Shown here: piece after piece, positions 18-26,767 of the stretch
Layout: each line of letters begins with the position of its first letter
Numbering within the stretch: position 1 is the stretch's first letter
From: a virus
Length of the DNA: 54,708 nt
Virus record (IMG/VR): IMGVR_UViG_3300035670_000266
Coordinates: 1 to 54,708 of that record
Strand: one strand, 5' to 3'
The notes under the pieces: generated by a model
What the model saw: the letters and a program-made list of their open reading frames with translations, nothing else
Databases searched by the model: none
Told to the model about the DNA's origin: nothing
Program-made: the position numbers and the translations under genes

Positions 18-743
18 ATGTCTTCACCATTACCTACTTTGTCTGTGCCTACTTATGAGGTAGCACTACCATCAACAGGAAAGACAGTTAAATACAGACC
101 ATTCCTAGTAAAAGAAGAGAAGGTTTTACTTCTTGCTATGGAATCAGAAGATGAAAAGCAAATCGAATCTGCTGTTAGAGACATCTTAAAGAACTGTATT
201 CAGACTAGAGGATTCAAAGTTGAGAGCCTGGCATCTTTTGATCTCGAATACTTGTTCCTGAAGATTAGATCTGTATCAGCAGGATCAGAAGTCAAGATGA
301 AAGTGACCTGTCTTGATGACAACGAAACTCAGGTTACTGTTTCTATTGATCTTGATGAAGTTGAGGTAGAAAAACCAGAAGGTCATACTAATAAGATCAT
401 GGTTCAGGATGATGTTGGTATGGTCATGAAGTATCCTGGTATGGATCAGTTTATTCAAATTACTTTACTCAACAAAGATCTATCAACTACAGAAGAACTC
501 TTTACTTTGATTGCTAAGTGTGTTGATCAAATCTTTAGCGGAGAAGAAGTATGGGAAGCATCTGATCTGAAACCTCAATACATTATTGACTTTCTGGATC
601 AAATGACTCAAGAACAGTTTGAGAAAGTACAACAATTTTTTGAAACAATGCCTGTACTTAGACACAGTTTCAAGGTAATCAATCCGAATACTAATGTTGA
701 ATCGACATATACGTTGGAGGGTTTACAAAGTTTTTTCGGATAG
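18..743 (+). CDS. 26: gp26-like baseplate hub / tail-assembly chaperone protein
   Basis: This 241-residue protein looks like the T4 baseplate protein family that includes gp26, which helps assemble the central hub of the baseplate. The basis is the overall pattern, an N-terminal beta-rich part with YRPFLVKEEKVLL near residues 26-38 and an acidic helical C-terminal half, plus the position before tape-measure, hub and spike genes. T4 gp26 is slightly shorter (about 208 residues). The reading frame ends in TTT TTC GGA TAG, where a T-run forms a slippery heptamer, so a minority of ribosomes may continue into the next frame. If so, it would be the short member of a G/GT-like chaperone pair acting on the tape measure. 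The start is the ATG at 18; few upstream bases are visible. Confidence 0.8.
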   Translation: MSSPLPTLSVPTYEVALPSTGKTVKYRPFLVKEEKVLLLAMESEDEKQIESAVRDILKNCIQTRGFKVESLASFDLEYLFLKIRSVSAGSEVKMKVTCLDDNETQVTVSIDLDEVEVEKPEGHTNKIMVQDDVGMVMKYPGMDQFIQITLLNKDLSTTEELFTLIAKCVDQIFSGEEVWEASDLKPQYIIDFLDQMTQEQFEKVQQFFETMPVLRHSFKVINPNTNVESTYTLEGLQSFFG

Positions 744-781
744 GGATGTTCTATAATAACCTTGAGAATTATTATAGAACA
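731..781 (+). promoter_or_regulatory. Probable programmed -1 ribosomal frameshift signal
   Basis: The heptamer T TTT TTC occupies 731-737 in the zero frame of the gp26-like gene (codons TTT 732, TTC 735). A 9-base spacer follows, then a perfect 13-bp inverted repeat (747-759 with 769-781, loop 760-768). The gp51-like frame is exactly -1 and stays open from the slip site (CGG ATA GGG ATG). A slip would give a product of about 301 residues: 240 of gp26, three linking residues R-I-G, and all 58 of the gp51-like protein. The stem is AU-rich, so its strength is uncertain. Confidence 0.7.
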
Positions 782-922
782 AATTTCTCCCTCATGCAGC
801 ACCATAAATATAGCTTGACAGAGGTCGAGAATATGATGCCCTGGGAGAGAACTGTTTACATCTCTCTGTTGAACCAATGGATTAAGGAACAAGAAGAACA
901 GAGGAAAGCAGCACAGAGATGA
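746..922 (+). CDS. 51: gp51-like small tail-hub assembly protein, possibly made as a fusion
   Basis: This 58-residue frame starts two bases after the gp26-like stop codon (ATG 746) and ends in an ATGA overlap with the next gene. It begins MFYNNLENYYRTNF and contains a helical MMPWERTVYISLL motif around residues 30-42. That resembles the small second component of tail-assembly chaperone pairs. In T4 the matching position is filled by gp51, a hub-assembly catalyst. The ATG has poor ribosome-binding context (AGGG abuts it, and it lies at the base of a hairpin). Expression is therefore more likely by -1 frameshifting from the upstream gene or by stop-start coupling. The name gp51 rests on gene order and general character and is less sure than gp26. 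Confidence 0.65.
   Translation: MFYNNLENYYRTNFSLMQHHKYSLTEVENMMPWERTVYISLLNQWIKEQEEQRKAAQR
803..810 (+). promoter_or_regulatory. Possible late promoter (CATAAATA)
   Basis: CATAAATA fits the NATAAATA form of T4-like cyanophage late promoters. It lies inside the gp51-like gene about 110 bases before the tape-measure-like gene. AT-rich coding sequence makes chance matches likely. Confidence 0.3.
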
Positions 923-3900
923 TCCCTCAAAAGGCAATCAAAAAATTTAAAAACGATGCTCATCGAGAAATCGTTGCTGGGATTTTACTTGCCTATGGAT
1001 TCTTTCCTAGAACATCCGAGGGTATTGAAGAAGCAAAAAGATTTGTTGCTGGATTGACTGAATGGATTGCCCCATCTGATTTACCTAATTATTATAATGA
1101 GATTGAAAGTGATCTAATGACTGGCAGAGAAACTGCTGGCATTATGAATATTAGAATGATAATGCAGGAGTTTTATTTTGGCGGAGGTAATAAAGAATCG
1201 GAACAAGAAGAGATACCTGTTGAAGTAGAAATCGTTGAGGTTGAACAGAAGCAACCAGACGAACCTGTTGTTGTAACAATAGAAGCACCATTCGAAAATC
1301 CAGTATCACCTGGACTTCCACGTAGGATTAGATTACCACGTAGAAAGAATGTAATTAGAGTTCCTAGACAAAAGAAAAAAGATACTGCCGAGAGAATGGC
1401 AGATGCTTTTGATGCTAGGTTAGACGATCTTCTTGATACAATTAGAAATCCAGATCCAGGATCAGCTCCACCTAGAGTAAGAAAAAAGAAGCAAGTACTG
1501 GCAACTAAAGTTAAGAAAGTATCTGCTAAGTTTGAAAATATAGATCCATACAAAGCAAAAACATTTACTGGGTTTTTAGGATTAAAGGTAAAGAAAGCAT
1601 TTGGTAGAGCTGCCGAGGCAAGAAGGATTGCTAAGGAGCAAGGTGCTGAGGAACAAGGTAGGGGTTATTTTTTAAAGAAGGCACTAGGATTTGAGTTTGG
1701 TGGTGATAAGTTATCAAGAATAAAAGGAACATTTTCCAAGAGTCCTACTGCTGTAAATGATCCAGCTCTAAGTCCAGATCAAAGATTCCTTGCTGGCATT
1801 GCTTCTGATATTACACCACCTCCAGTAAAGCAGGGAGAACTATTCAACACCAAACAGTATGAAACTAAGACAGGTCTAACAAAATTCTTTGATGACAGTG
1901 TAAGTAGATTACAAAATTCATTTGCTAGAGTAGATAAGAAGTTTGCTGATCTTATTCAGATAAAGAGAAGTGTTTCTGATGATCGTAATCAATTACTAGG
2001 AATACAAAAGACTATTGATGGATTGAAGAATGCTTTAAGAAAAAATAATGATACTCAGTCTGATATTAATGACACAAAGACGAGACAACTAGAATTATTA
2101 TTTGATATAGCAGATGCTGAACAGACAGCAGCTGCTGAATCTGGATTGGAAAAAGGTGAAGACTTAAGTACAACAGTAAAATATCAAGATCCTTATGGAA
2201 AACTTAAATCTATAGCAGCAGGGGCCACTGGAGGTGGACTATTAGATGGATTACTTGATTTCTTAGACCTCAAAGATTTAAAAAATGTGAAAAATCTTGG
2301 TCGTGGTGCTTTGAATGTAGGAAAGAATATTGGTCGTGGTGCTTTAAATTTAGGAAGAAATGCTGTAAGTGGTGTGAAAGGGTTTGTTTCTGGTGGTGCT
2401 GCTACAGCAGCTGCTATAGTTGCGGGAACTGGACTTGCTGCTTCTGGTGTTGGAGAAGGCTTTTTTCAACTGACAAAAAAAGGCGGAATTGGTGAGCAAG
2501 TTAGAGACTCCCTTAAACAAATGGGAGAAAAAAGATCTAAGCAAGATCCTATAGGAGGAATGATATTAGGAGGACTTGGGAATCTTGCTGGAGTATCAAC
2601 CGAGGCAACTAAAACTACTGGTGTAGCACTCGATGCTATCGGTGCTCCTTTTAGATATGCTGTAGAAGCAATACGAAATCCTTTCTTAAACAAGGAAGAT
2701 AAAGAAAAGCAAGCAAATAATCTTGCTAAATTTGATTCCAGAATAAGAGAGTTCTCTCGTGGGTGGATGAACCAAATAGATTTTCTTAATGTTATTTCTG
2801 ATGAAAAGGGTGGTTTTGGAAACATTTATGGCAATGCCGAAGCACAATCTCAGATGATGGAAAAAATGTCTGAAGGTGGTGTAGTCAAGTTTGCTGAAGG
2901 TGGAACAGTTAAGGCAATGATTGGTGAAGCTGGTCCCGAAATGCTATTAAGAAATGGTCAAGATGGTGGACTCAATCCATATCAATCTCTAGCACCAATG
3001 ATCATTGCTACCAGGGAAATTACGAAACGAGTTGGTAACTGGGCAGATCCTATAGAAAATTATGTCAAGAAAATTACAGATCCGATTGCTAAACAAATGA
3101 GACTGTCAGTTGTTCCATTGTCCACTTCTTTGGGCAAAACTGAACCACCAAAAATTCAACAAGAAGATCCAAACAAAAAAGGTGGTATATTAGAATTCTT
3201 GAAAAATCTTTTTAAAGGAAAAGACGATAAGAAATCTAACTCTACTGGATCTGGAGGAACTACAGATCCAGGTCCAGGTCCAGCTTCTGGGGATTTTTGG
3301 TTATTGGCTGTAGCTTCTTTGTTTGAAAATTCTAATCCACAAGGAGCAGCAGATGTTGCTCAAGCAATATATAACAGACTTGCTTTACCTGGATGGGGGA
3401 AAACAATTAGAGATATTATTTTATCTCCAAATCAATTTCAACCAGTAAGACAATATGGTGGAGTTGGTCAATGGTCTAAAATTACTGATAGACAAACAGC
3501 TGTTGATTTTATAACTAAACACGGAAAGACAGAGGATCAATTAAACAAAGTAGTTTCTGCCTTACAAGATCCAGCGATGCAATCTAATGCCAGACAATTT
3601 GTTGGTGCTAGAGATAATTTTAGGGCAGATTCGTATGAGAGAACCGCTAATCATTTAGATGATTCGACAGAAGTTAGTCGTCATGGGCATACATTTGGAA
3701 TGGAAGCAGGGGGTGCTAATTATGGTGCTTTCAAAGCAGGTAAATTATCTGCTGGTGGTGTCCCTACGTTTGATTCATCAGGAACCTCAGATGCTCAACG
3801 TGCTCAATTACAAACACCACAACCACCTTCCCCCGCTAAGGCGTCAATGAAGTCTCCTATACAACCTCCATCCAGTAATTCTTTACAACCTCTAGCACTC

Positions 3901-4065
3901 CCAGCAGCACCAGCACCTGGCGGTGGAATATTTGTGATGCCAGGAGCAGCCCCAATGCCAGCAGCAGGAACTGGTTCACAAGCATTTTCATTTTTACCAC
4001 AGAGCAATAGACAACCAGAGTTATCACTTGAAAGTATTAGACAGCTGTCTCTTGGTAGACGATAA
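919..4065 (+). CDS. Tape-measure-like virion protein with SleB-type cell-wall hydrolase domain
   Basis: This is a 1048-residue tail protein. The N-terminal third is basic, helical and likely coiled coil. A glycine/alanine-rich hydrophobic stretch lies around residues 430-535, followed by repeats of the SEGGVV / AEGGTV / IGEAGPEMLL type, common in C-terminal parts of phage tape measures. Residues about 790-945 resemble the SleB (hydrolase 2) fold: SLFENSNPQGAADVAQAIYNR, with Glu near 803 in the usual acidic position, then SPNQFQPV. The tail of the protein is Pro/Ala-rich. It shares an N-terminal block (FGGD..R.KGTFSK, NDPALS) and a DLSTTV.Y.DPY block with the next gene, so the two are paralogues. 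I infer roles in setting tail length and in local peptidoglycan opening. The start overlaps the preceding stop (ATGA). Confidence 0.75.
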   Translation: MIPQKAIKKFKNDAHREIVAGILLAYGFFPRTSEGIEEAKRFVAGLTEWIAPSDLPNYYNEIESDLMTGRETAGIMNIRMIMQEFYFGGGNKESEQEEIPVEVEIVEVEQKQPDEPVVVTIEAPFENPVSPGLPRRIRLPRRKNVIRVPRQKKKDTAERMADAFDARLDDLLDTIRNPDPGSAPPRVRKKKQVLATKVKKVSAKFENIDPYKAKTFTGFLGLKVKKAFGRAAEARRIAKEQGAEEQGRGYFLKKALGFEFGGDKLSRIKGTFSKSPTAVNDPALSPDQRFLAGIASDITPPPVKQGELFNTKQYETKTGLTKFFDDSVSRLQNSFARVDKKFADLIQIKRSVSDDRNQLLGIQKTIDGLKNALRKNNDTQSDINDTKTRQLELLFDIADAEQTAAAESGLEKGEDLSTTVKYQDPYGKLKSIAAGATGGGLLDGLLDFLDLKDLKNVKNLGRGALNVGKNIGRGALNLGRNAVSGVKGFVSGGAATAAAIVAGTGLAASGVGEGFFQLTKKGGIGEQVRDSLKQMGEKRSKQDPIGGMILGGLGNLAGVSTEATKTTGVALDAIGAPFRYAVEAIRNPFLNKEDKEKQANNLAKFDSRIREFSRGWMNQIDFLNVISDEKGGFGNIYGNAEAQSQMMEKMSEGGVVKFAEGGTVKAMIGEAGPEMLLRNGQDGGLNPYQSLAPMIIATREITKRVGNWADPIENYVKKITDPIAKQMRLSVVPLSTSLGKTEPPKIQQEDPNKKGGILEFLKNLFKGKDDKKSNSTGSGGTTDPGPGPASGDFWLLAVASLFENSNPQGAADVAQAIYNRLALPGWGKTIRDIILSPNQFQPVRQYGGVGQWSKITDRQTAVDFITKHGKTEDQLNKVVSALQDPAMQSNARQFVGARDNFRADSYERTANHLDDSTEVSRHGHTFGMEAGGANYGAFKAGKLSAGGVPTFDSSGTSDAQRAQLQTPQPPSPAKASMKSPIQPPSSNSLQPLALPAAPAPGGGIFVMPGAAPMPAAGTGSQAFSFLPQSNRQPELSLESIRQLSLGRR

Positions 4066-4093: not shown

Positions 4094-6328
4094 ATGGCAC
4101 ACGGGTTTGTATCATATTCAAAACCAAAGTACGGTAATTTATCAGGATACATAGCCGATAAAATTAAATCTGCTGCGGGAATGGCGGCAGAAGAAAGAAA
4201 GGCAAGAGACGAAGAAATAAAATCATTACAGAAGAAAGAAGAATTAACAGATGAAGAACAAGAAAGATTAGATTTTCTTACAGAACAACAGGGTGGAAGA
4301 AAAGGATCTTTCTTCGGTAAAGCATTAGCAGCAGAGTTTGGTGGCGATAGAGCAAGAAGATTAAAGGGAACTTTTTCTAAAGATCCTTCCAAAGAAAATG
4401 ATCCAGCACTATCAAAGGGCGAAAGATTTAGTGCTCTTCTAGATAAACCAGATGCTCCAGCAGAAGAACCAGTAAAACCAGAGACGCCTTATACTCAGTT
4501 GTCTTTACCTGGCATGGGTGCTGAACCAGAATCTGGAGACATCAAAGAATCTTTAAGCAAAATATTTTCTACGATATTAAAATCGTATGATACTATTGCC
4601 GATAGAGTTTCGGCGGTTGGATCTGCCGAGCGAGAAAATGTATCAAAGTCTGATAAAAGAAATAATTTTCTAGCATCTATATCTTCTGGATTGGCATCTT
4701 TTAAAGATTATTTTTCTACTGATAATAAGTTAAAAGAAAAGGAATTAGATACTGAAGTAAAACAATTAGAGTTCGCTATTGATCAGCAAGAAAATGCTGA
4801 ATCAATAGCAAATGAATCTAAGTTAGAAGCTGGTCAAGATCTTAGTACCACTGTTGGATATGAAGATCCATATGCTAAGAAAGAAAAAGAAGGCGATGAT
4901 GGCGGTGGTATCTTAGGTTCTATTGGTAATCTATTAAAAAATTTCCTTCCTAAAGGTGGAAAAGTACCAGGCAAAGGTGGTGGTAAGTTTGGTGCTCTTA
5001 AAAATATAGCGGGATCTTTTGGTAAGGGAGGAATGTCTCCCACAAAGATGTCAGAAGGAGGAGTTATATCTCCTGTAAAAAAAGAAGCACCAAAGAAAGT
5101 AGAAGCAGCAAATAATATTAAGAAACTTTCTAAAGGTGGCATTGTTCCTTCACCAAAAGCAAAGCCAGAGAAAACAAAAATGGCTGCTGGTGGAATAGTT
5201 GACAATCCAACAGTAACGAATTTAAATCCTGGTGATGCTGTTGTTCCTTTGAATAGAAACAATGCCATGGGTAAGATGTTCCAGTCTGCTGGATCATCTG
5301 CTAGTAGAGTAATGGCAGATCCGCTAGCAAAGGTTATGCAACTTCCATCTCAAGTTGGTGGTGGATTGATGATGGGATTATTGTCTCAAGGCATGGAAAA
5401 ACTTGGCGGTATTGCCAACTTTTTCAAACCAGCAATCATGAAGATTGCTACTCCGTTAGCACAGATGTTTGGACTGCCAGCAACTATCATCTCATCCTTC
5501 TTTGGTGGCCCAGCAGCAGCTGCTACTATGGACTTCGATCCAAGCAAGTACATGGGCACTGGTGGCGACTCTACTGCCCCTGGCGGCGCTGCTCCTTCGT
5601 CCCCAGCCCCTCCCCCTGGTGGGTCTGGTGGGGTTGGTCCTGGAATGACTGCTAGTGGAGGTTCAAAAGCATCTGGAAACATCACTTCTGGGTTTGGTAA
5701 CAGATCATCACCTGGAGGTATTGGATCTACTAATCATGGTGGTATTGATATTGCTGGTGGTGCTTGGGTACAAGGAGCTCCTGTTTCTGTAATTAAACCT
5801 GGAACTGTCGAAGAGACTGGAGATCTTGGTAAAAGTGGTTGGGGTAAGTATGTTGTGGTTAAACATGATGATAAAACTCATTCTTTATATGGTCACTTAA
5901 GTCAGATTAATGTAAAGAAAGGAGACAAAATAGAAAATAAAGCTGGTGCTGCCAGAGTTATTGGAAAAATTGGAAGCACGGGAGCATCTACTGGACCACA
6001 TTTACACTTTGAATTGGGTAGTGGGTGGAATGGAACTATCACGGGCAAAATGGATCCTGCTCCATATGTTGATAATTATATTAGAGGTGGCGGCAATGTT
6101 ATGATTGACGCTCCAGTAATGGCAGCTGGTGCTCAACCAGCACCAGCAGGAACACCAGTACAACCTAATAGACCTCCAGCACGAGCAGCAAAACCTGCTT
6201 TTGCTGGACTGACACTGCCATCAGCACAACCACCACAGCAACAAGCAGCTGCTCCTATGGGTCTTAATGCTGCCTTTGGATTAACCAATCCAACTGGAAT
6301 CTATAACAACTATTACAATGGATGGTAA
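4094..6328 (+). CDS. Tape-measure-like virion protein with M23 peptidase domain
   Basis: This 744-residue protein is a paralogue of the preceding gene. They share the FGKALAAEFGGD..R.LKGTFSK block (about residues 75-95) and DLSTTVGYEDPY (about 250-262), then tape-measure-type SEGGVI / AAGGIV repeats. Residues about 526-660 form an M23 (LytM-like) zinc endopeptidase. The HxxxD pair is His548 and Asp552 in HGGIDIAG, YGHLS carries His601, and HLHFEL carries His636 and His638, so the expected zinc and catalytic residues all appear present. M23 enzymes cut peptide cross-links in peptidoglycan. Residues about 455-515 are hydrophobic, Pro- and Gly-rich. I infer a virion protein that opens the cell wall during injection. 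The C-terminus is a Pro/Ala/Gln tail. Confidence 0.8.
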   Translation: MAHGFVSYSKPKYGNLSGYIADKIKSAAGMAAEERKARDEEIKSLQKKEELTDEEQERLDFLTEQQGGRKGSFFGKALAAEFGGDRARRLKGTFSKDPSKENDPALSKGERFSALLDKPDAPAEEPVKPETPYTQLSLPGMGAEPESGDIKESLSKIFSTILKSYDTIADRVSAVGSAERENVSKSDKRNNFLASISSGLASFKDYFSTDNKLKEKELDTEVKQLEFAIDQQENAESIANESKLEAGQDLSTTVGYEDPYAKKEKEGDDGGGILGSIGNLLKNFLPKGGKVPGKGGGKFGALKNIAGSFGKGGMSPTKMSEGGVISPVKKEAPKKVEAANNIKKLSKGGIVPSPKAKPEKTKMAAGGIVDNPTVTNLNPGDAVVPLNRNNAMGKMFQSAGSSASRVMADPLAKVMQLPSQVGGGLMMGLLSQGMEKLGGIANFFKPAIMKIATPLAQMFGLPATIISSFFGGPAAAATMDFDPSKYMGTGGDSTAPGGAAPSSPAPPPGGSGGVGPGMTASGGSKASGNITSGFGNRSSPGGIGSTNHGGIDIAGGAWVQGAPVSVIKPGTVEETGDLGKSGWGKYVVVKHDDKTHSLYGHLSQINVKKGDKIENKAGAARVIGKIGSTGASTGPHLHFELGSGWNGTITGKMDPAPYVDNYIRGGGNVMIDAPVMAAGAQPAPAGTPVQPNRPPARAAKPAFAGLTLPSAQPPQQQAAAPMGLNAAFGLTNPTGIYNNYYNGW

Positions 6329-15388: not shown

Positions 15389-18300
15389 ATGGCTCTTACA
15401 AGACTTGATAATCTGTATTCAAGCAAAACTGGTAAATACCTTTATGTATCTCCAGATGACTTTAATGCTACTGACGAATTAGATAACAGAGGCAATTCTC
15501 CTCTACGTCCTTTCAAGACAATTCAAAGAGCATTTATTGAGGTAGCAAGATATTCGTTCCTACCTGCTGAAAACGGTCAAAGCGTTCCTGATAGATTTGA
15601 CCAGTTCAGCATCATGCTAATGCCTGGTGATCACTATATTGATAACCGTCCAGGTCTTGTAGAAATTGATACTGGTAAAAAACAACGTTATTATGATGCA
15701 AAAACCCTAATTACAGCAAACCGCCAAGAAATTATTGATCGTGCGTTTGCTCAGATTGCTATTGATTACAATGAAGTACTTTGGGGCGCTAATTGGGTAG
15801 TTCCTGGCGATCCTGCTGTTCAGGATAAAAATAGATATTATGATTCATATCGTTTAATTCAAAAAAATAGAGATTATATTAGAGATAGAGCAACTGCTGA
15901 GGTAGCCATTCAATTTCCTGATTTTTATTTTCCAGATGAACCAGAAACTGATACTGCTAGCAGATTTGCTGATGCTTATCGTTTAATTCAGCAAAATAGA
16001 CAAAATATTATTGATTCTGCCTTTGCTAACACCGCTTTAACTTATCCTGCGGTTGGTTCTGTTGGAGACAAGTGTAAGCGTGATATCGGTTACTTTATTG
16101 ATCACACTACACTAGACCTTTTCTTTGGCGGCAACAAGTACACCAGAGAATTTGTACTTCAGTACTTTGATGCTAATGGTAACCAAATTACCAATGGTCT
16201 TCAAGGCGAAGAAACTCAATCTAACTATGCTTTCAATGCTGCTAAAGCTTTCATGAAAGCAGCATTAACAAATCAAAGTTCTGTTGTTGTTAATGGAACA
16301 ACTTATAATATTGCTTCTTGGACAAAAGACTTAACTATAACTGCTGATCCTTTAACTGGTTCTAATACTAGTGCTGCTTCTTGTGCTAACGTACAGACTA
16401 CACTTGATAACTTAACTACCATTGTTACTGATGTTTTCCTTGCTGGTAATCTTTCAAGTCTTCCTCCAGTAAACACAGGAAATGCTTCTGTAGGTAAATT
16501 AAAGTGTGCTAGAGATATTGGATTCTATATTGATGCTATTTCTCTAGATATTGCTCAGGGTGGTGGTAACGTATACACTAGAAAGTATATCAAAAACTAC
16601 TTCAACCCAGCTGGCACTGCTTGGATTGATGATGGTCTACAGGGAGAAGAAGTACAATCTTTAGTTGCTTTTAATTTTGCTAAAAATTTGATGAAGCAAG
16701 CAGTATCCAATCAACTTGGATACAAAGATCTATCTTTAACTCACAACACATCTAATCCTGGCACTTATAATGGGGACAATTATGACCCAGCTTCTTGTGC
16801 TAATGTAAAAACAACAATTGACAACCTTGCTGGTATCGTACAAACTTTCTTCACTCAAGGTACATTAGATAACTTTGTAGCAGAAACTGTAGCAGACACA
16901 GAACCAGGCGAGAGCAAGTGTAAGCGTGACATTGGTTATATTGTTGATGCTGTTGCTGCTGACTTAGCAAATGGTGGTAATGGTAGCATTATTGCTGCTG
17001 CTAAAGCATATTTTAACAAAAATGGCACTCCAATCAGTAATGGTTTAGTTGGTGAAGAAGCACAATCAATTGTTGCTTTTAATGCCGCCAGAGACATGAT
17101 GAAGAAAGCTGTAACCAACCAGCTTTATTCTAAAGATCTCACTATTCTTGCTGGCCCTGCTGAGTACATTGGATATGAAACTAACGAACCAATTGTACCA
17201 AATCTTCCATCAGGTAATGCTGCTACTTGTATTGATGTACAAGCAAGTATCGATACTCTTGTTGGTATTATCACCACAGTTATCAATGATGGAAATCTAG
17301 ATAGTCTCACTAATGTACAAATCACTGGTGATATCCCAGTATTTAACTTTAACAGAGCTCTACAAGAATGGCAAGATAACAGTATTCTTGACCTTAGCAA
17401 CCCAGATAACGTTCTTTACAAGTTTAACTCTTCTACAGGCGGTTGTATCGTTCCTAGAGGTTGTTCTTTGATTGGTTATGACCTTCGTAGAACGATTGTT
17501 CGTCCTCTTTATGTTCCAGATCCTGCCGATGGAACACAAGAAAGAACTTCTATCTTCAACTTAACTGGTGGTTGCTATATTTGGCAGTTTACTATTAAAG
17601 ATGGTGATCTCTCTTCAAATTCACCGCTATTTGATTCAACTGCTAATGTTGGTAAGGTTTACTTCCAGAAGGGCAATAACTCACAGTTAGCTATTCCTGA
17701 GTATTCTCACCATAAGATCACTATTATGACTTATGCTGATCAAGATGATCTTGATCTGTATTATCAAAAGGTAGCAACTGCTTTTGCTTTGTTCCAACCA
17801 ACTATTGATGATGGTGATTTTGAAGCACTGCCACAAGAAAACAGAATTGTTGGTCCTCTTTCTGATACCAGAAGTATTAGTAAAATTAGACTAAAGGGAC
17901 AAACTGCTGGCGGCAAGACAACCATTGAAGCTACCACAAAAGTTGCTCATGGATACTTCAAGGAGCAGTATGTTGCTATTATTGATACTGGATTGAATGA
18001 TGGATTAAACGGTACTTTCAAAATTACCGCTATTTCGGATAATCCTAAGATTTTTGAATATGAAGTTGATCTAACTCCTCAGCAACTAGGATTGGATATT
18101 AACGAGACTGGATATACTATTCCAGATCTTAGCTTAAATGCCAGAGCACAAGCAGAAATCGACTCTGTAGAATCTGCTTCACCATACGTCTTCAACTGCT
18201 CAATCAGATCCACCTGGGGTATCTGTGGTATGTGGGCAGATGGATCCAAAGCAACTGGATTCAAGTCGATGGTTGTTGCTCAGTACACAGGTGTTTCGCT

Positions 18301-21300
18301 ACAAAAAGATGACCGTGCTTTTATCCGTTATGATGAATTTAGCAACACCTGGAACCAGGCATCACTAACTGATGCTTTTGCTACCGTTGCTTATCATACT
18401 AAAGGTGATGCTTATTGGAAAGATGACTGGAGAAACTTCCACATCCGTGCTTCGGATGACTCATTTATTCAGTGTGTTAGCGTCTTTGCTGTAGGATTCT
18501 TTGATCACTTCTTGATGGAGTCTGGCGGTGACATGTCAATCACCAACTCCAACTCTAACTTTGGTAATACATCTCTACACTCTATTGGTTATAAGGGATT
18601 TTCTTTCAACCAAGATAAGGGTGGATATATTACTGATATTATTCCTGTCAAAAAAGTTGATACCAGTGCTTTTAACGAATTAGAACTTAAGTATTATCCT
18701 CTGTCTAATCAGGCTACTAAAGTTAATGGTAATCAAACTAAACTATATTATAGTGGAGATGATGTATATTCTCCATTTGAAAAACCAGCAACTTCAATTG
18801 ATGGTTATAGACTTGGCGCTTTAACTAATGATAAATTGTTCCTAAAACTACCAAAACTTGGTGGCGGGACGGACATTTACGAAGCAACTGTTTCTCCATC
18901 TGGATTTGAACAGTACAAAGTTTCTCTAGAAACTCTAAATCCAGATGGTGTTCAGATTAATAATCTAGCACAAGATGCTTCTAATTTGATTGAAGCAAAT
19001 AAGGAGTTTATTCAAAGTGAAGCATACAAGTATATTATTACGAAGTATCCAGCTCTTCAGACAAATACTAATATCACTATTTCTAAGTGTGAAAGAGATA
19101 TTGGTTATATCGTTGATGCTGTAATTCAAGACTTGAGACTTGGCGGTAATATTAATACTATTCAAGCTGCTGAAGGTTATTACGTTGGTGGTACGCTTGC
19201 TTATATTGATGGAGAACTCAACGAATCGATTGAAGCATATGAGTATGTGAAGAATCTTTGTATTGCTGCTATGAGAAATTTTGACTATCTCATTAGAGAT
19301 TGTCAAACAACTAATGGATCTGCTATTATCAATGTTGGTAATACACAAGGACTTCTCGTTGGAATGAGAGTCACTCAGTATGATTATAACACCACTAATT
19401 TCACCAATGGTAGACTAAATCGTGGTACTGCTGTTCCAACTACAATAAATCCATCAATTCCTACTGGTGCTTACGTTAGAAGAGTTATTGACTCCGAAAA
19501 GATTGAAATTGGAAATAGTGCTCCTGTATTGACGGAAACTAATGGTATTTTATCAGCAACATTTGGAAATGCTATTACAGCAAACTTAACTTCTACTTCT
19601 GGCGTATATCTACACTTTGAATTCTCACAAACAGCATCTATTTCAGATAGCAATGATGTTCTTGTTGGTGGATTCAGCTCAGTTAATCCTGTAAGAGATA
19701 GTTCTGTTCTTCAAGACACAACAGCGTGGTCTCCAACTGGTGCTGATGGATATCCTGAATGTGCTAGCATTGCTGCTACTATCGAAGAATATTTCACTAA
19801 CTTCTTCTTGATTCTAAACAATGGATTAACTCCCCTTGGCGGTAAAGAAGTAGATGCTTCTAACTTAATTCTTGCTAATAAAGAATTTATTGCTGCTGAA
19901 GCTGTAGATAGAATGTTGGCAAACAATCCAGGATTTAGTGTTCCTGGCGGTAGTCAAAATTGTATTGATGACGTTATTGATGTTCTAGAGACATATGCCT
20001 ACAATATCAAGTTTGGTGGAAATGATAAAGTTTATGATGCTGCTAGAATCTATGTTCTACAACCAGGACTACTAGCTGGAGAAAGAACACAATCTGTTGA
20101 AGTTTATACAGAAGCAAGAGATCTTGCTACTTCTGTAATGAGAAATCAACCAATTATCATTGAAGGTTCTCATGGTTTGACTCAAACTTTTGATAATAAT
20201 GTCATTGGTGAAACTTCTAATCAAGCTGGCGTTTATAACTATGCCAATGATTGTGTTAGTGTTGCTCAAACTCTAACTACATTTACTGCTATTATTACTC
20301 AAGCAATTGGTACTGAAGCAAATCCAGGAAATCTAACTGGTATTACTAGAACAGAACCAACATTCAATGTTGTCACTAGAGTAGAACCAGTAGTAGATAC
20401 TGCTAATCTTGCCACTCGTGCTACATTATTCACTGTTAACACTGGTGCTTCTACTTCAGATCCACACTTATTTGAAACTGGAACTCCTGTAAGACTTGTT
20501 CCAAAAATTAGAGATGGTGTAGACCCTGCTACTGTAGATAAGAGAGTAATTCGTCTTCCAAAAGGATTTGATACTAATACAATTTACTATGTAATTGCTC
20601 CTGGTAGAAGAACTGAACCTGAAGATTATTCTGATGGTGCTACATATCCAAATGTTTTCACCAAGAATCAAACAACTAAGTTGATGTTGGCGACAACAAA
20701 AGAAAATGCGGCCGCTGGCATTTACATGTATTCGCCAGAGACTGACTCTGTTGATTTCAACGTACAAATAGAACTTCATCAGTTTGTTCTTGATGAAAGT
20801 TATGATCTTCATCAATATCTCTGTAATTTCCCAACTGGTCAAACTAATGTAATTCAAACTGATGTTCCCCACATTTTTGATGTTCCAGGAACTCAGGCAC
20901 ATGTACAAAAAATCTTCTTTAGAACATTTGGAGAATCATCAACTCTACCTCAGTTTACTGATGGTTCGAGTGTAAATCCAAATCAGTATTACTATGCTAG
21001 ATTTGTAACTCCAAAGACATTTGCTGTTTATCTAACAGCTGCCGACGCTGTTAATGGATCTCTTAGCGTAACATTTGCTAATGGATTTGGACAAAACTTC
21101 TATGTATTTGCTGATAAGAGGGTATCTCCAGTAAGATTTGATGCTACTAGAGATGATAGTGCTTTACCAGAAGATGATCGTGAAACAACAACTGGACAGT
21201 GGTACATTCAGACAACTGATGATTATGATCCAGCTGTAAACATTCAAGCTAGAATGAATCAAATTGGTGCTGATTTGAAAGATGCTAGATCTAAAAATAC

Positions 21301-24300
21301 TACATTCAAGAGACTTAAGGACGATAGAACAGCACAAGATAGAATCTATCGTTTACGTTATGTAATTCCTAAATATGCTGATGGTGTAAGAGATCCTCTA
21401 AATGGGTTTGTTCTCAAGGCAAGAACCGACGAAACAAGAAAACTGCTACCACAAAAAATTGTTCTTAAACCAGTTTCTAGTGGTATTGCTAGTGTTGCTT
21501 TGTTTGAAGTTGAAACTCAACTTGCCCAGGGTGGAACAATTAATCAGCAACTAGGTCTTCCAGCAAGTGAATTAAATTCGAGCTTTGACTATGATCCATA
21601 TAATGTAGATCAGGTTAAGATTATTCCTAGCGATAGAACGGAATCAAAAGTTTCTTTTACTATTCAATCTGCTAGAAAGGTAACAATTTCTAGCACTGAA
21701 TATTTAGAATTAACTGTATTTGATCTTGGAATCACTTCTGATTCTGTAAGAAACGAGCAGTTTGTAACTGTTAAGATTAATGCTCCTCAAGGCGGATCAT
21801 TCAGAATTAATTCTTCTGTAAGTAATGAGCTTAACAAAGTTACTTGGAATGGATTCTCCTCTGGATTTGCTTATATTCAAGGATACTTCAATCCAGATGG
21901 CACTGACGAACATTACTTAGTTCTTAAGGGATTAGATGAAGATGTGATTTCTTACAATAGAAATTCTTCAACTGTTTTCTCACAACCAGTATTAAATGTT
22001 GATAATGATCCAGTTCTTGATAGTAATGGCAATCAAGTTCTTATCTATGCTACTCTTCAAGCAAAACCAAATAGTGTAGGAAGTCCTAACAATACTCTCA
22101 GCAAGTCTGATAGAAAGGATTATCTCTATAGTGATAAGAACGCTAACGTTCTTACAATGACTCCTGGTGATAAGATTATTGATGACGATGGTAATCAATA
22201 TGAAATTGCTAGCGTTGTAGACGCTGGCGAAATTGAAGATACATTCTATATCTTTGATATTGAAGAAGTTAAGAGAAGAATTCCTAATCAGCAAGAAGGT
22301 ATTTACTACCTAACTTGTGTTAAGGGTAATGTTTCTCCATATCCAACTGGTCCAGGTGTTGGTACAAACTTCAGAAACTTTAGATTCTCTCAACCAATTG
22401 GTCAACTATATCCACTAGATTATAAGAACGATCCACTTTGGTTCCAAGTTAGACCAGATGGTACAAGAGATACCAGTATTCTAGATACTCCAGCTACTGT
22501 TTGTGCTGCTGATAACTTTATTCATGGTTTAGTAACAACTAATGACTATAAGAATAGTGAAACAAAAGAAGTTATTCTAGACTTCATTGAAAATCCTGCT
22601 TTAAACAGATATGATTATGTAACCAATGCTATTGAAGCACAGTCTGGAAACGCTGCTTCTGGATCTGAAGATAGATTAATTCCTATCTGTGGTGATTCTC
22701 CATATCCAACTGAGCGTAGACTGTATGTTGAACTACGTAGACCATCTATTGCTCGTTCTGGTAACCACACATTTGAATACCTAGGTTTTGGTCCTGGTAA
22801 CTACTCAACTGGTTTCCCACTTCGTCAGGAAGTTGTCCTTAGAGACATTCAGGACTTCTATGCTCAGGCAAAGCGTGAGGACGGCGGTATCGTCTTCTAC
22901 ACTGGTCTAAACTCTAATGGTGACCTCTATATCGGTAACCGTAAAATCAACGCTATTACAGGCGAAGAAACATTCTTAGAGAGAGCAGAATTGCTAGCTT
23001 CGGATGATGATGAAGGTGATATTGGTGGTCTTGTTACTACTTTTGAACTTCCTGTTGCTTTCGAACAAGAAATTACTGTTGATGGCGATGCTCTGTTTAA
23101 TAATCCAGTAACAATTAACGTTGATGATGATGAACCAAATGCTTTCACCGTTATTTCTAACGTTGATTCGAATGCTGGCGGTGATTTATCACTAGATAGC
23201 AGTGCCTTCAGTAGAAGTATTATTGCTTCTCAAGGTAATGTTGTTATACATCAAAACCAAATTTGGTCTGCCGTATACAGATTAAATCCAAGAGGAAATA
23301 CACTATTATCTGGTCAGGATTATAGCATTAGAACAGCTGTTGATAATACAGCTGGCAATACTCCCACTAACCAAACACCTAATCAAACAAATAGCAATCT
23401 TGGATATGCTGTAGCATATGGTAATCAGCAACCAACCGCTGGTGATATCATTCTAAAAGGTGAACAGGTAGATAGATCTGGATCTCTTGGTTGGATTTAT
23501 GCTAACTTCTATGATCCCGTAACTGCTTCTATTGAGTCTTCAACTGCTCTCGGCGGATCAACAGTTCAATTTAATACAGTAACTGGCACTTCAGTTTCTT
23601 CTCTTGGTATTGTAGTTAATACAATCATCAAGATTGAAGGTATGACTGGTAGATACCTCAATCTCAATGGATTAAGAAAGGTTACTGAAGTATCTGGGTC
23701 ATTCTTCAAAGTTAATGCTCCTGTATTGATTGAAGTTAGTGCTGTTGATGATCCTCAAGCTATTGGATCTGGAGTTGTTATTTCCGTTGCCAGAAACAGT
23801 TGGAAAGAAGTTGGAGTTGTTGGATCTGAAGTATTCAGAACCTACACCGATATTCCTGGTAAGTATGCTGTTGGTATCAACACTATTGCTAGAGCAGCAC
23901 ATGCTGATAAAGATACAGCATTTATTTCTACTGTTACATATCCAAGAGCAACCCTGGATGTTGTTGGTACTATGTTTATTAGTGGCAAGACACTATCTGA
24001 TACTAACTTTACTAACAACTCTACTCTTTCACAAAGAACATTTAATGTTGAAGATAACGCTGTATTAATTGGCGGCGATTCATTACTACCAAATACTACA
24101 GCTACATTAAGAGTTGCCACTTCTAATGGAACTCAGTCTAATGGATCTCCAAGACTTTATACTGGTGGTCGTTTAGGACTTAATGTTTCTGAATCAAATA
24201 TGAACCATACACTCACAGTTGTGGGTGATATGAGATTGACTGAAGATGCTACTTTTGAAGAAAATCTGGCAGTAAATGGTGGATCACTATCAACTACATC

Positions 24301-26767
24301 AACAAACTTTAGTTTACTTGACGGTGGTGCTACTACAGTATTCTTTGCTTCTAATGCTACGGAATTAAATATAGGTAATTCTGTAGCGTCTGGCGATGAT
24401 CAAGTAATTAACATTGGTACAAATGGTGATTCTCAGATTGTTAATATTGGTACTTCTGTTCCAACTACAGAATTAAATCTTCATAATGGTGGTGACATTG
24501 CCAAAGTCAAGATTGGTACATCTAGCAATGTAGGAACTACTAAAGTTTCTGTTATTGAAATTGGTGGTGCTTATGGTAAAATTTCAAACTCCTTAACCGA
24601 GGGTTCTGTTGTTAAGTTAAGAACTAGATTTACTGAAGTTGATGGAGATCTTACCATCGGCGCTGCTGTTGTCAGTGGAACTGGAGTTGCTTCTTTAGCA
24701 TCACCAGCAGAAAGATTTGATTTATTAACAGTAACTACATCTAGAATTAATTTTGGTAGTGCTGCTAGCAGAATCTCGATGGGTGCCCAGGGTGGATTTA
24801 CTCAAATTAATAACAGCCTTACTGTTAAATCTGCTACTAAATTAGAAGGTGATGCTACTTTATCTGGTGGATTAAACTCTGGTGAATTTGAAGTAACAAG
24901 AGGATCGTTTGGAACAACTGCTACGTCTCATGCTCAAGGAAGTATTGATCTTCCTAATATCGACTTGTTCACCAAACAAGAAATTGGACAATTTATCGAT
25001 CTTGAAGGTGGATCTTATTGGGGTCACACTGGAGTGGAAACTGGTGGCGTTAGTGATAATCGTTATCTTGCTGGTTTAGATACTAATGGTGAACCTCTGT
25101 ATTACTTACCAATCGCTATTCCGAGTAATACGACAGCATTCCAAGTTGGAATGTATATTTTACTCGATCGTTCACAGGAAGCACAATACTGGAATGGCAC
25201 TCAATTTGTTTCAACTCAAGGTAATGCTCCAATTGGCCAACAATATAGTGAATTAGTACAAGTTGTTGAATTAACAAACATCAACAACGTTTCTGATTTG
25301 CCATTAAGAGTGAAAGTCAGAAGAGCTATGAACCAACGTAATTCTGATGGTTCTCGTATTACTGGAACTCCTGCTGGATTGCCTGGTGATGTGACAAATT
25401 CTGGTTATAAGTTTATGAGAACTGATCACCCAGATAATACAGTTCTAATTCGTTATAACTTAGCAGAAAATGTGAGTTTTATTGATGATGTTGGTGGTAT
25501 TCCATCTGCTACTTCTGGAACATCGGCTGATATTAATACTGGAGATTTTTCTGGATCTGTTTTAGTAGGAGACATCTTAAGATTTACAGATTCTGAACTA
25601 GCTTTTATTACTGGCATCAATACTACATCTCCACAAAGATTTGTCATTACTGATGGCAATGATGCGAATCCAGTTGAACAGTTTGTAGTTGACTCTACAA
25701 ATGGTAATACATCAATTCTTGGTGACGTAACGGTATTTAAGAACTTCACTCTTTCTGGATCCACAACTGCTGGATCACAAAAATTAATTATTACAAATGG
25801 TGCTTCTACTCCAATTACTAAATTTGAAGTGGATTCTGCTACTGGCACTGTTTGCTTGAAAGGAGATCTTAAGGCTGGTGGAGATAATTGTGATCGATTA
25901 ACTGTAATTGGTTCTACTGGTAATACGACTTTATTGGGCGGAAACTTTGTAATTAGAAATTCTGATGCTACTGTTGACAAGCTTATTCTCCAGAATAGCA
26001 CTGGCAATCTAACATTAAGTGGAATAATTACCACTCAGGGTGCTGGAACTAGCACAATTGGTGGTCCGCTTAAAGTCAACGGCGGCACATTTACTGTCAA
26101 TAAGATTGATCAATCACCAGAATGGCAGGCAAATACTAATTATCTGAATGGTAGTACAATATTCTTTGGTGATAATATCTATACAGTTGTTACTGTTGGT
26201 GGTGTTGCTTCTGGACTTTCTGGAACAGTTGCTCCTATACACACTTCTGGAACACAAAATAATGGTGCTATTCAATTAACGTTCCTTAAGACTAAATCTG
26301 AAGAGCAAATCTTCCAGATTGAAACTGATGGTTCCATGAACTTTGCTGGTCAGCAAGGATTCTATACACCAACAGGTGCTAGAAAGTGGCAGTTTGTTGG
26401 CGCTGGTGAATCACAATTTGAAGTTGTGTCTAATATCAACTATTTTGTATCACCATCTTCTGACTTGACACTTCTTTTACCACAAAATCCAACTACTGGC
26501 GATATGATTAGAATTGTTGATGTTGGTGGAAATCTAACTTATAATGTTTCATTGAGACTTAGAGCACCAAACGGCATTAGTGTACAAGCAGATAACACAA
26601 ATGCTAATATTCCTAATTTAGCAAGTATAAATTATAATGGTGGTGAACTAGTTGTTCAAACTCCTAATGCTGGATTGGGTCTAATTTATCTTGGTAATAC
26701 AAATTATGATGGTACATCAACAGGTGCTCCATCATCTACACAAGGTTGGTGGTTAGTAGAAATCTAA
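15389..26767 (+). CDS. Giant virion structural protein, probable tail fibre or adhesin
   Basis: At 3792 residues this is the largest gene in the window. It begins MALTRLDNLYSS and carries DNRGNSPLRPFKTIQRAFIE (about 33-52), a start I associate with large structural proteins of cyanomyoviruses. Two helical repeat types follow. One is DAYRLIQ.NR..IID.AFA, with three copies near residues 90-220 and two later as DASNLI.ANKEFI. The other is a module starting C.RDIGY.VDA and ending GL.GEE.QS..A....K..M..A..N, at about residues 229, 373, 511 and 1233, with a diverged copy near 1525. From about residue 2500 the protein becomes beta-rich with fibre-like strand repeats (INIGTNGDSQIVNIGTS; FEVDSATGTVCLKGDL). 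I infer host attachment. Transcription is from the TATAAATA at 15342. Confidence 0.75.
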   Translation: MALTRLDNLYSSKTGKYLYVSPDDFNATDELDNRGNSPLRPFKTIQRAFIEVARYSFLPAENGQSVPDRFDQFSIMLMPGDHYIDNRPGLVEIDTGKKQRYYDAKTLITANRQEIIDRAFAQIAIDYNEVLWGANWVVPGDPAVQDKNRYYDSYRLIQKNRDYIRDRATAEVAIQFPDFYFPDEPETDTASRFADAYRLIQQNRQNIIDSAFANTALTYPAVGSVGDKCKRDIGYFIDHTTLDLFFGGNKYTREFVLQYFDANGNQITNGLQGEETQSNYAFNAAKAFMKAALTNQSSVVVNGTTYNIASWTKDLTITADPLTGSNTSAASCANVQTTLDNLTTIVTDVFLAGNLSSLPPVNTGNASVGKLKCARDIGFYIDAISLDIAQGGGNVYTRKYIKNYFNPAGTAWIDDGLQGEEVQSLVAFNFAKNLMKQAVSNQLGYKDLSLTHNTSNPGTYNGDNYDPASCANVKTTIDNLAGIVQTFFTQGTLDNFVAETVADTEPGESKCKRDIGYIVDAVAADLANGGNGSIIAAAKAYFNKNGTPISNGLVGEEAQSIVAFNAARDMMKKAVTNQLYSKDLTILAGPAEYIGYETNEPIVPNLPSGNAATCIDVQASIDTLVGIITTVINDGNLDSLTNVQITGDIPVFNFNRALQEWQDNSILDLSNPDNVLYKFNSSTGGCIVPRGCSLIGYDLRRTIVRPLYVPDPADGTQERTSIFNLTGGCYIWQFTIKDGDLSSNSPLFDSTANVGKVYFQKGNNSQLAIPEYSHHKITIMTYADQDDLDLYYQKVATAFALFQPTIDDGDFEALPQENRIVGPLSDTRSISKIRLKGQTAGGKTTIEATTKVAHGYFKEQYVAIIDTGLNDGLNGTFKITAISDNPKIFEYEVDLTPQQLGLDINETGYTIPDLSLNARAQAEIDSVESASPYVFNCSIRSTWGICGMWADGSKATGFKSMVVAQYTGVSLQKDDRAFIRYDEFSNTWNQASLTDAFATVAYHTKGDAYWKDDWRNFHIRASDDSFIQCVSVFAVGFFDHFLMESGGDMSITNSNSNFGNTSLHSIGYKGFSFNQDKGGYITDIIPVKKVDTSAFNELELKYYPLSNQATKVNGNQTKLYYSGDDVYSPFEKPATSIDGYRLGALTNDKLFLKLPKLGGGTDIYEATVSPSGFEQYKVSLETLNPDGVQINNLAQDASNLIEANKEFIQSEAYKYIITKYPALQTNTNITISKCERDIGYIVDAVIQDLRLGGNINTIQAAEGYYVGGTLAYIDGELNESIEAYEYVKNLCIAAMRNFDYLIRDCQTTNGSAIINVGNTQGLLVGMRVTQYDYNTTNFTNGRLNRGTAVPTTINPSIPTGAYVRRVIDSEKIEIGNSAPVLTETNGILSATFGNAITANLTSTSGVYLHFEFSQTASISDSNDVLVGGFSSVNPVRDSSVLQDTTAWSPTGADGYPECASIAATIEEYFTNFFLILNNGLTPLGGKEVDASNLILANKEFIAAEAVDRMLANNPGFSVPGGSQNCIDDVIDVLETYAYNIKFGGNDKVYDAARIYVLQPGLLAGERTQSVEVYTEARDLATSVMRNQPIIIEGSHGLTQTFDNNVIGETSNQAGVYNYANDCVSVAQTLTTFTAIITQAIGTEANPGNLTGITRTEPTFNVVTRVEPVVDTANLATRATLFTVNTGASTSDPHLFETGTPVRLVPKIRDGVDPATVDKRVIRLPKGFDTNTIYYVIAPGRRTEPEDYSDGATYPNVFTKNQTTKLMLATTKENAAAGIYMYSPETDSVDFNVQIELHQFVLDESYDLHQYLCNFPTGQTNVIQTDVPHIFDVPGTQAHVQKIFFRTFGESSTLPQFTDGSSVNPNQYYYARFVTPKTFAVYLTAADAVNGSLSVTFANGFGQNFYVFADKRVSPVRFDATRDDSALPEDDRETTTGQWYIQTTDDYDPAVNIQARMNQIGADLKDARSKNTTFKRLKDDRTAQDRIYRLRYVIPKYADGVRDPLNGFVLKARTDETRKLLPQKIVLKPVSSGIASVALFEVETQLAQGGTINQQLGLPASELNSSFDYDPYNVDQVKIIPSDRTESKVSFTIQSARKVTISSTEYLELTVFDLGITSDSVRNEQFVTVKINAPQGGSFRINSSVSNELNKVTWNGFSSGFAYIQGYFNPDGTDEHYLVLKGLDEDVISYNRNSSTVFSQPVLNVDNDPVLDSNGNQVLIYATLQAKPNSVGSPNNTLSKSDRKDYLYSDKNANVLTMTPGDKIIDDDGNQYEIASVVDAGEIEDTFYIFDIEEVKRRIPNQQEGIYYLTCVKGNVSPYPTGPGVGTNFRNFRFSQPIGQLYPLDYKNDPLWFQVRPDGTRDTSILDTPATVCAADNFIHGLVTTNDYKNSETKEVILDFIENPALNRYDYVTNAIEAQSGNAASGSEDRLIPICGDSPYPTERRLYVELRRPSIARSGNHTFEYLGFGPGNYSTGFPLRQEVVLRDIQDFYAQAKREDGGIVFYTGLNSNGDLYIGNRKINAITGEETFLERAELLASDDDEGDIGGLVTTFELPVAFEQEITVDGDALFNNPVTINVDDDEPNAFTVISNVDSNAGGDLSLDSSAFSRSIIASQGNVVIHQNQIWSAVYRLNPRGNTLLSGQDYSIRTAVDNTAGNTPTNQTPNQTNSNLGYAVAYGNQQPTAGDIILKGEQVDRSGSLGWIYANFYDPVTASIESSTALGGSTVQFNTVTGTSVSSLGIVVNTIIKIEGMTGRYLNLNGLRKVTEVSGSFFKVNAPVLIEVSAVDDPQAIGSGVVISVARNSWKEVGVVGSEVFRTYTDIPGKYAVGINTIARAAHADKDTAFISTVTYPRATLDVVGTMFISGKTLSDTNFTNNSTLSQRTFNVEDNAVLIGGDSLLPNTTATLRVATSNGTQSNGSPRLYTGGRLGLNVSESNMNHTLTVVGDMRLTEDATFEENLAVNGGSLSTTSTNFSLLDGGATTVFFASNATELNIGNSVASGDDQVINIGTNGDSQIVNIGTSVPTTELNLHNGGDIAKVKIGTSSNVGTTKVSVIEIGGAYGKISNSLTEGSVVKLRTRFTEVDGDLTIGAAVVSGTGVASLASPAERFDLLTVTTSRINFGSAASRISMGAQGGFTQINNSLTVKSATKLEGDATLSGGLNSGEFEVTRGSFGTTATSHAQGSIDLPNIDLFTKQEIGQFIDLEGGSYWGHTGVETGGVSDNRYLAGLDTNGEPLYYLPIAIPSNTTAFQVGMYILLDRSQEAQYWNGTQFVSTQGNAPIGQQYSELVQVVELTNINNVSDLPLRVKVRRAMNQRNSDGSRITGTPAGLPGDVTNSGYKFMRTDHPDNTVLIRYNLAENVSFIDDVGGIPSATSGTSADINTGDFSGSVLVGDILRFTDSELAFITGINTTSPQRFVITDGNDANPVEQFVVDSTNGNTSILGDVTVFKNFTLSGSTTAGSQKLIITNGASTPITKFEVDSATGTVCLKGDLKAGGDNCDRLTVIGSTGNTTLLGGNFVIRNSDATVDKLILQNSTGNLTLSGIITTQGAGTSTIGGPLKVNGGTFTVNKIDQSPEWQANTNYLNGSTIFFGDNIYTVVTVGGVASGLSGTVAPIHTSGTQNNGAIQLTFLKTKSEEQIFQIETDGSMNFAGQQGFYTPTGARKWQFVGAGESQFEVVSNINYFVSPSSDLTLLLPQNPTTGDMIRIVDVGGNLTYNVSLRLRAPNGISVQADNTNANIPNLASINYNGGELVVQTPNAGLGLIYLGNTNYDGTSTGAPSSTQGWWLVEI

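Follow-up and report, generated by a model that had tools for sequence, protein, structure and literature searches.

Many tailed phages use a programmed shift of reading frame to make a short and a long tail-assembly chaperone. In phage lambda, for example, G and GT lie upstream of the tape-measure gene within the tail operon, and the model developed from lambda is that the short part oligomerises and the tail of the long part recruits the tail tube. The G/GT frameshift was reportedly described by Levin in 1993 and by Xu in 2004, and Vladimirov, Gautam and Davidson are said to have identified the tail-assembly chaperone genes of T4-like phages in 2022 (in Virology 566:9-15). According to a passage of the PRFect paper that cites Vladimirov, some T4-like phages carry a short copy and a long fused copy (PMC10885494), and a passage of the Adele paper, also citing Vladimirov, states that the TAC-N genes of T4-like phages are known to carry poly-T slip signals (PMC12846349).

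The locus described here stands at the beginning of a 54,708-base virus record (the window, by which we mean this whole stretch of DNA), which opens with gp26. The nearest named relatives of the window are cyanophages, and its phage is akin to T4 and to ocean cyanobacterial phages. Like lambda G/GT, the locus pairs a short protein with a predicted long protein reached by a -1 frameshift; the lambda slip site is G GGA AAG and that of the window is T TTT TTC, and the likeness drawn here is one of layout. T4 resembles the window in that gp26 is the putative short form and gp51 carries the same C-terminal segment, and differs from it in that genes 26 and 51 are two divergent genes without a heptamer. 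The chaperones of Vandenendeviridae and Andersonviridae, in the part of the Adele paper that describes them, share with the window a conserved T-rich slip site, an unbroken -1 frame and a history of being missed by annotation, but have a GTTTTT motif and belong to other phage families (PMC12846349). The features of the locus and its surroundings are as follows.

18..743, plus strand: gp26, putative short form (TAC-N / G-like), 241 amino acids; PF12322 T4_baseplate E=5.1e-71, phrog_150 E=2.4e-76.
717..721, plus strand: GAGGG, Shine-Dalgarno-like, possible stimulator, 9 nt 5' of the heptamer.
731..737, plus strand: slippery heptamer T TTT TTC in the gp26 frame; read directly, conserved in relatives.
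737..922, plus strand: -1-frame segment that the shift would add, 61 codons and a stop, the predicted C-terminal part of the long form (TAC-NC / GT-like); conserved, 78 complete loci.
738..746, plus strand: spacer of 9 nt between heptamer and stem; read directly.
741..743, plus strand: gp26-frame stop TAG, one codon past the heptamer; the same spacing in 80 of 80 loci and in the window.
746..922, plus strand: ORF usually annotated gp51, 58 amino acids from its own ATG; phrog_634 'baseplate hub assembly catalyst' E=2.4e-27.
747..781, plus strand: hairpin of 13 bp with a 9-nt loop, putative downstream stimulator, from sequence and folding.
919..4065, plus strand: next gene, 1048 amino acids, candidate tape-measure-region protein; phrog_5453, and a cell-wall-hydrolase match just below the Pfam cut-off.
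4094..6328, plus strand: 744 amino acids with an M23 peptidase domain, candidate tape-measure-region protein; Peptidase_M23 E=2.5e-21, phrog_5453.

The first-pass annotation had placed an in-frame T TTT TTC at 731-737, followed by a 9-base spacer and a perfect 13-bp hairpin, and direct reading agrees with every one of these coordinates. The gp26 gene ends AGT TTT TTC GGA TAG (729-743), and the stretches 747-759 and 769-781 are reverse complements without a mismatch, the first stem pairs also taking in two of the three bases of the ATG at 746. The -1 frame, described there as running open into the 58-residue gp51-like gene, is indeed open from 43 nt 5' of the gp26 stop through 922, and the fusion estimated at about 301 residues comes to 301 when computed (240 + 61). 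The match of gp26 to PF12322 scores 239.3 bits, with the curated Pfam cut-off at 24.5, and is the only match to that family in the 54.7 kb searched, the record being a genome fragment.

Further into the window, the ORFs at 919-4065 and 4094-6328 have look-alike segments in common when compared by eye, and they separately match positions 5-346 and 362-759 of phrog_5453, as if a single protein of other phages were split here; the first has a cell-wall-hydrolase-like part and the second the M23 peptidase. Two very long ORFs, at 15389-26767 (3792 codons) and 34613-40384 (1923 codons), perhaps encode tail fibre or other structural proteins, although this is a guess.

We propose, with high confidence and on comparative sequence grounds, that -1 programmed frameshifting at U UUU UUC yields both a short gp26 and a long gp26-gp51 chaperone. 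Most ribosomes would read one more codon, stop at the TAG at 741-743 and release the 241-residue gp26. A minority would move back one base with two Phe-tRNAs on UUU UUC, with probable help from the downstream stem and possible help from the upstream GAGGG, and would go on through the 61-codon -1 segment to make the 301-residue gp26-gp51 fusion. Oligomers would then form through the short part, and during tape-measure coating the tail tube would be brought in by the tail of the long part. We infer the slip itself, its ratio and the chaperone role from the sequence, its conservation, the constraint upon it and the homology of the fusion to T4 gp51.

Conservation was followed in two samples. The gp26-selected set holds the best 80 of 598 relatives in viral contigs, making 81 loci with the window, all distinct as DNA; the gp51-selected set holds the best 80 of 599 relatives, and 5 contigs are common to both by name. 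Being the best matches, both sets lean to close relatives. The heptamer by itself is weak evidence, since TTTTTTC occurs four times on the plus strand of the window; what lifts the slip site above chance is its conservation across relatives. An alignment of the junction across relatives had been suggested as a check at first pass, and in this respect the expectation was borne out: TTTTTTC, one codon and the gp26 stop follow one another in 80 of 80 relatives. In all 81 loci, then, the 3' end of the first ORF carries a heptamer in X XXY YYZ phase, which is a mark of the chaperone type. In the gp51-selected set the heptamer is again found in 80 of 80 loci, as TTTTTTC in 75, TTTTTTA in four and TTTTTTT in one, with a single codon between heptamer and stop in 77 of the 80; one locus of this set (L155) begins 15 nt before the heptamer and says little.

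Constraint on synonymous sites points the same way. In the 80 relatives and the window, the final two Phe columns of gp26 are TTT in 81 of 81 and then TTC in 81 of 81. Among ten other columns with at least 80% Phe, six are split between TTT and TTC (54/27, 41/40, 58/23, 48/27, 57/23 and 30/50), the remaining four lean to TTT (76/4, 65/3, 68/5 and 68/5), and none is TTC alone. A frozen TTT on its own would therefore be ordinary, and it is the frozen TTC that is unusual. Over gp26 as a whole the Phe codons are TTT 715 times and TTC 242 times, and elsewhere in the gene just 13 of 351 Phe codons that precede a G are TTC. The phages are related, whereas the p-values for codon choice presuppose independence between sequences, so these figures are to be read as effect sizes only. 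The codon 5' of the T-run is AGT, TCT, AAT, GGT, GAT or GCT, covering five amino acids and always ending in T. On these comparisons, the slip site is not a product of chance.

The same columns bear on transcriptional slippage, in which RNA polymerase would slip on the T-run and give mRNAs of altered length. The site is a T-run, of seven T in some relatives, which speaks for it. However, the final C of the heptamer caps the run at six T in 81 of 81 loci, even though TTT is the commoner Phe codon (715:242), when selection for transcriptional slippage should presumably lengthen the run; the X XXY YYZ phase, and a following RNA more folded than its recodings, also speak against it. We regard transcriptional slippage as a very remote prospect.

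As the first-pass reading requires, gp51 of the relatives lies in -1 register next to gp26. The -1 segment is complete in 78 of the 81 loci, and contig ends cut the other three (L025, L051 and L064), which were excluded from the complete segments. All 78 complete segments begin with Arg, and no variation is seen at residues 9 (Leu), 16 (Asn) or 17 (Phe). A conserved second ORF in -1 register, open across the junction, is a further mark of the chaperone type that is found here.

The start codons of this segment bear on the choice between frameshifting and an independent gp51, that is, a separate small protein made from its own codon (ATG 746 in the window), either alone or by re-initiation past the gp26 stop, with the T-run incidental. 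Records do give gp51 as a gene of its own, and the first ATG past the slip is often early, falling at the 4th codon in 43 of the 81 loci and at the 7th in 20, with the remainder at the 15th (3), 19th (1) and 20th (14). Frames are joined by TAATG in KVP40 and some others, and Vibrio phage D509 has a TAATG overlap without the heptamer. In eight of the 81 loci, however, ATG, GTG and TTG are all absent from the first 14 codons past the slip, and in ten more the sole such codon is a TTG at the invariant Leu. The residues of this startless early stretch are conserved nonetheless, and an ordinary fresh start cannot yield that part of the protein in the eight loci. Likewise, the first ATG, GTG or TTG in the -1 segments of Aeh1 and ZPAH1 comes at the 19th and 32nd codon (the 2nd codon of the Aeh1 segment is CTG), yet these segments match phrog_634 with E=1.1e-13 and E=1.2e-9. 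The T-run also occupies the place of a ribosome-binding site: 57 of the 63 early-ATG loci lack AGG, GGA or GAG 5-14 nt upstream. The window is among the six of 63 with a Shine-Dalgarno-like triplet in reach, a GGA 5 nt upstream of ATG 746, which favours an own start there. An independent gp51 would, moreover, leave the frozen synonymous sites and the in-frame fusion of T4 (see below) unexplained, and we consider it highly unlikely.

Existing annotation of this region is uneven. The unannotated stretches past gp26 in Aeh1 (L085, 4711-4887) and ZPAH1 (L121, 2199-2369) correspond to -1-frame gp51 segments, and the annotated gp51 of Syn1 (L083, 6051-6182) and of P-HM2 (L123, 2283-2375) starts from a Met inside the -1 segment, 19 and 32 codons past its beginning, respectively. 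Among the records listed, nine of 40 have no annotated gene in the gp51 region. In the portion of their comparison that deals with this gene, Sullivan et al. (2010) give gp51 as absent only from Aeh1 and the gp51 of cyanophages as having about 20% of the full length. Frameshifting would account both for the 'missing' gp51 of Aeh1 and for the cyanophage gp51 of about 20% length.

Folding of the RNA past the slip was assessed in 79 of the 81 loci, two being too short. In the window, 725-800 has a z of -3.37 relative to dinucleotide shuffles, and the 60 nt past the slip a z of -3.07 relative to synonymous recodings in which the -1-frame protein is unchanged; in each comparison, 0 of 200 randomised sequences folded as well. 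Across the 79 loci, the mean z of these 60 nt against synonymous recodings is -2.31, with p<=0.05 in 45 of 79; the controls, which themselves lie below zero, have mean z -0.68 within gp26 (n=243, 19% with p<=0.05) and -1.00 further down gp51 (n=78). Dinucleotide shuffles give mean z -1.59 vs -0.63, with z above 0 in nine of 79 loci. Thus, the recoding test is in line with a downstream RNA structure under selection, as in the chaperone type, with a stem whose shape varies. The window's own stem is common to L001, L002, L003, Syn1 and S-PM2, in which 91% of cells are paired, and other loci have stems built differently in the same place; judging from these alignments, the exact 13-bp stem is limited to close relatives. 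In this respect the proposed alignment of the junction fell short, the stem being local and compensatory changes numbering zero among the 13 pairs in six sequences of the closest clade: eight pairs are invariant, one varies on one side, and four depart by unpaired cells only. Covariation therefore gives the stem no proof, and it is the recoding test that carries the support for downstream structure.

Upstream, a Shine-Dalgarno-like sequence can stimulate -1 shifting, as in the dnaX case of E. coli. GAGGG ending 9 nt before the heptamer is found in 70 of 81 loci of the gp26-selected set, where its Glu codon is GAG rather than GAA in the ratio 70:9 vs 629:1366 elsewhere in gp26; GAG before GG elsewhere in gp26 occurs in 8 of 37 cases. 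In the gp51-selected set, 37 of 75 loci have GAGGG and 21 of 75 have GAAGG. We rejected GAGGG as a universal upstream element on the 37 of 75 in this second set; it is possibly a lineage-dependent aid.

The slip site is not confined to cyanophages. The heptamer stands in the right phase in 29 of 32 further loci, some of them near-copies: L096, L108 and L110 are KVP40, P10VF and HTVC008M again, and the gp26 of L109 and of L112-L116 is 97-100% identical to that of HTVC008M. One locus, L118, was left out of this count as its match is cut by the contig end, and L111 was retained and scored as a miss. The named phages were picked by us to widen the spread and are not a random sample. Among them, TTTTTTC is found in KVP40, nt-1, Aeh1, ZPAH1, Ps15, BUCT-ZZ01, S-CRM01 and IG49, TTTTTTT in phiN3, pf16, Atu_ph04 and HTVC008M, and TTTTTTG in P10VF. 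The hosts of phages with the slip site include cyanobacteria, pelagibacters, vibrios, aeromonads, pseudomonads and rhizobia. The three further loci without the heptamer are Vibrio phage D509, Acinetobacter phage AB1I1P and L111. The -1 segments of Ps15 and D509 match phrog_634 weakly (E=0.14 and E=0.043).

Two of these loci deserve a separate word. D509 (L094, around 4670) has one gp26 and a gp51-like -1 ORF joined to it through TAATG, without a heptamer, possibly a third way to express the pair. In L111, the gp26 frame stops after 162 codons and the tblastn match extends to residue 233; the early stop represents a change of frame or of stop, whether real or a sequencing error.

T4 itself appears to have reached the same products by another route. 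The 249-residue T4 gp51 matches PF12322 over residues 1-201 (E=3.9e-52), phrog_150 across 3-248 and phrog_634 across 147-246. A profile made from the 78 predicted fusions lines up with four T4-type gp51 proteins, mainly in their second half, and crosses the junction without a gap; against T4 gp26 it stops matching at residue 207 of 208, within a few residues of the shift site. The E-values of this profile were computed for a single-sequence search space and without filtering, and its reversed controls as reported gave E of 0.037 or worse. Together, the domain matches and the profile alignment indicate that T4 gp51 is best read as the in-frame long form, a gp26-like domain followed by the gp51 tail, and T4 gp26 as the short form. 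The first-pass suggestion that gp26 and gp51 of T4-like phages form the same system is therefore upheld as regards the proteins, with T4 gp51 as the in-frame long form, and not as regards frameshifting in T4, where the genes are divergent and the heptamer is absent.

The Phe-Phe near the end of T4 gp26 is encoded TTC TTT, and the heptamer was found in the last 10 codons of none of ten T4-type gp26 genes (T4, Aes012, AB1I1P and seven contigs; seven of the ten T4-type loci were used in the tree and the heptamer test). Copy number goes with this difference. Of 21 chosen phage records, T4, Aes012 and AB1I1P have two copies of PF12322 and none of these has the heptamer; the other 18 have a single copy, and 17 of the 18 have the heptamer. 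In the gp26 tree the T4-type phages fall into a single clade, and the change is thus probably a single evolutionary event and not three. The gp26 and gp51-N sequences of the T4 type each form one group (100/100), and a branch at 64/82 sets the two together apart from the rest, which is compatible with a duplication within the T4 lineage without proving it; the gp51 frame of L106, in the tree set, ends after 120 codons. It is tempting to extend this to the whole superfamily, and on balance we favour such a view: across the T4 superfamily, frameshifting would be the widespread route to the long chaperone, with the stimulatory RNA repeatedly rebuilt, and of the lineages surveyed only the T4 type would have swapped recoding for duplication, T4 gp51 being the GT form.

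What the two products do is a separate matter from how they are made. The frameshift could be real, with a mechanism just as we propose, and its products could be baseplate-hub proteins as annotated and not tail-length chaperones. The Pfam and PHROGs names refer to the base plate or the baseplate hub, and part of a T4 review counts gp26 and gp51 among the chaperones of hub assembly and describes evidence of gp26 in the hub (PMC3004832). On the other hand, a recoded long and short pair before a large tail-region ORF is the layout of tail-assembly chaperones, and the title of the 2022 paper on T4-like chaperones and the passages that cite it point to a chaperone identity. The next large ORF clearly matches tape-measure PHROGs in HTVC008M (E=8.4e-12) and weakly in S-CRM01 (1e-4, behind an endolysin family) and pf16 (0.0085), and no match to a tape-measure PHROG was found for it in KVP40, Aeh1 or P10VF. 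In the window, 4094-6328 matches tape-measure PHROGs only through its M23 peptidase stretch, and 919-4065 has no tape-measure PHROG match. The gene upstream of gp26 is annotated as tail tube or tube initiator in KVP40, Aeh1, phiN3, pf16, HTVC008M and P10VF and is without a tail-tube annotation in Syn1, S-PM2 and S-CRM01; gp26 is the first gene of the window, and its upstream neighbour lies beyond the edge of the record.

Predicted structures add a little. A model of gp26 (pLDDT 87.6) matches the HK97 chaperone gp13 (2ob9) with a Foldseek probability of 0.54, the highest among the 50 matches listed, at a weak E=1.6; a comparison with VIA-align ranks HK97 gp13 second among the 16 listed (Z 7.6 over 86 residues, rmsd 5.3), a value below the telling level that may reflect a common arrangement. 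For the T4-like gp51 model (pLDDT 90.4) no chaperone was among the structure matches listed, which is not evidence of absence, and by sequence no solved relative was found for gp26 (best E 0.29) or for T4 gp51 (best E 1.3). The layout and the natural fusion, by analogy with known systems, point to gp26 and gp26-gp51 as the short and long tail-assembly chaperones, and the structural models back this identity weakly. Products confined to the baseplate hub seem to us unlikely.

The equation of this locus with G/GT that was made at first pass thus finds strong support in comparative evidence. The accompanying belief that the system is undescribed is probably wrong in substance, as the T4-like idea is in print (Vladimirov et al. 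2022). From the window's match to T4, we infer that the chaperone genes of that paper are 26 and 51. We found no description of the cyanophage version of the gp26-gp51 frameshift in the open-access literature, outside which most subscription journals lie. With the basic idea already published for T4-like phages, the gain lies in breadth, detail and testability: new here are the breadth of the survey, the tests of synonymous sites and of recodings, the argument from start codons, the contrast in copy number and the case of the Aeh1 gp51.

If the proposed frameshift is correct, the annotation of a near-core gene would change in many cyanophage records, as 'gp51' probably forms the last part of a longer protein and not a gene by itself, and it is overlooked where a start codon is absent, as in Aeh1 and ZPAH1. 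The superfamily would also offer a natural experiment, in which the same protein pair is made by slippage or by two genes. Finally, T4 gp51 gains a testable role: this essential protein of 'unknown function' would, if the reading holds, simply be the GT form.
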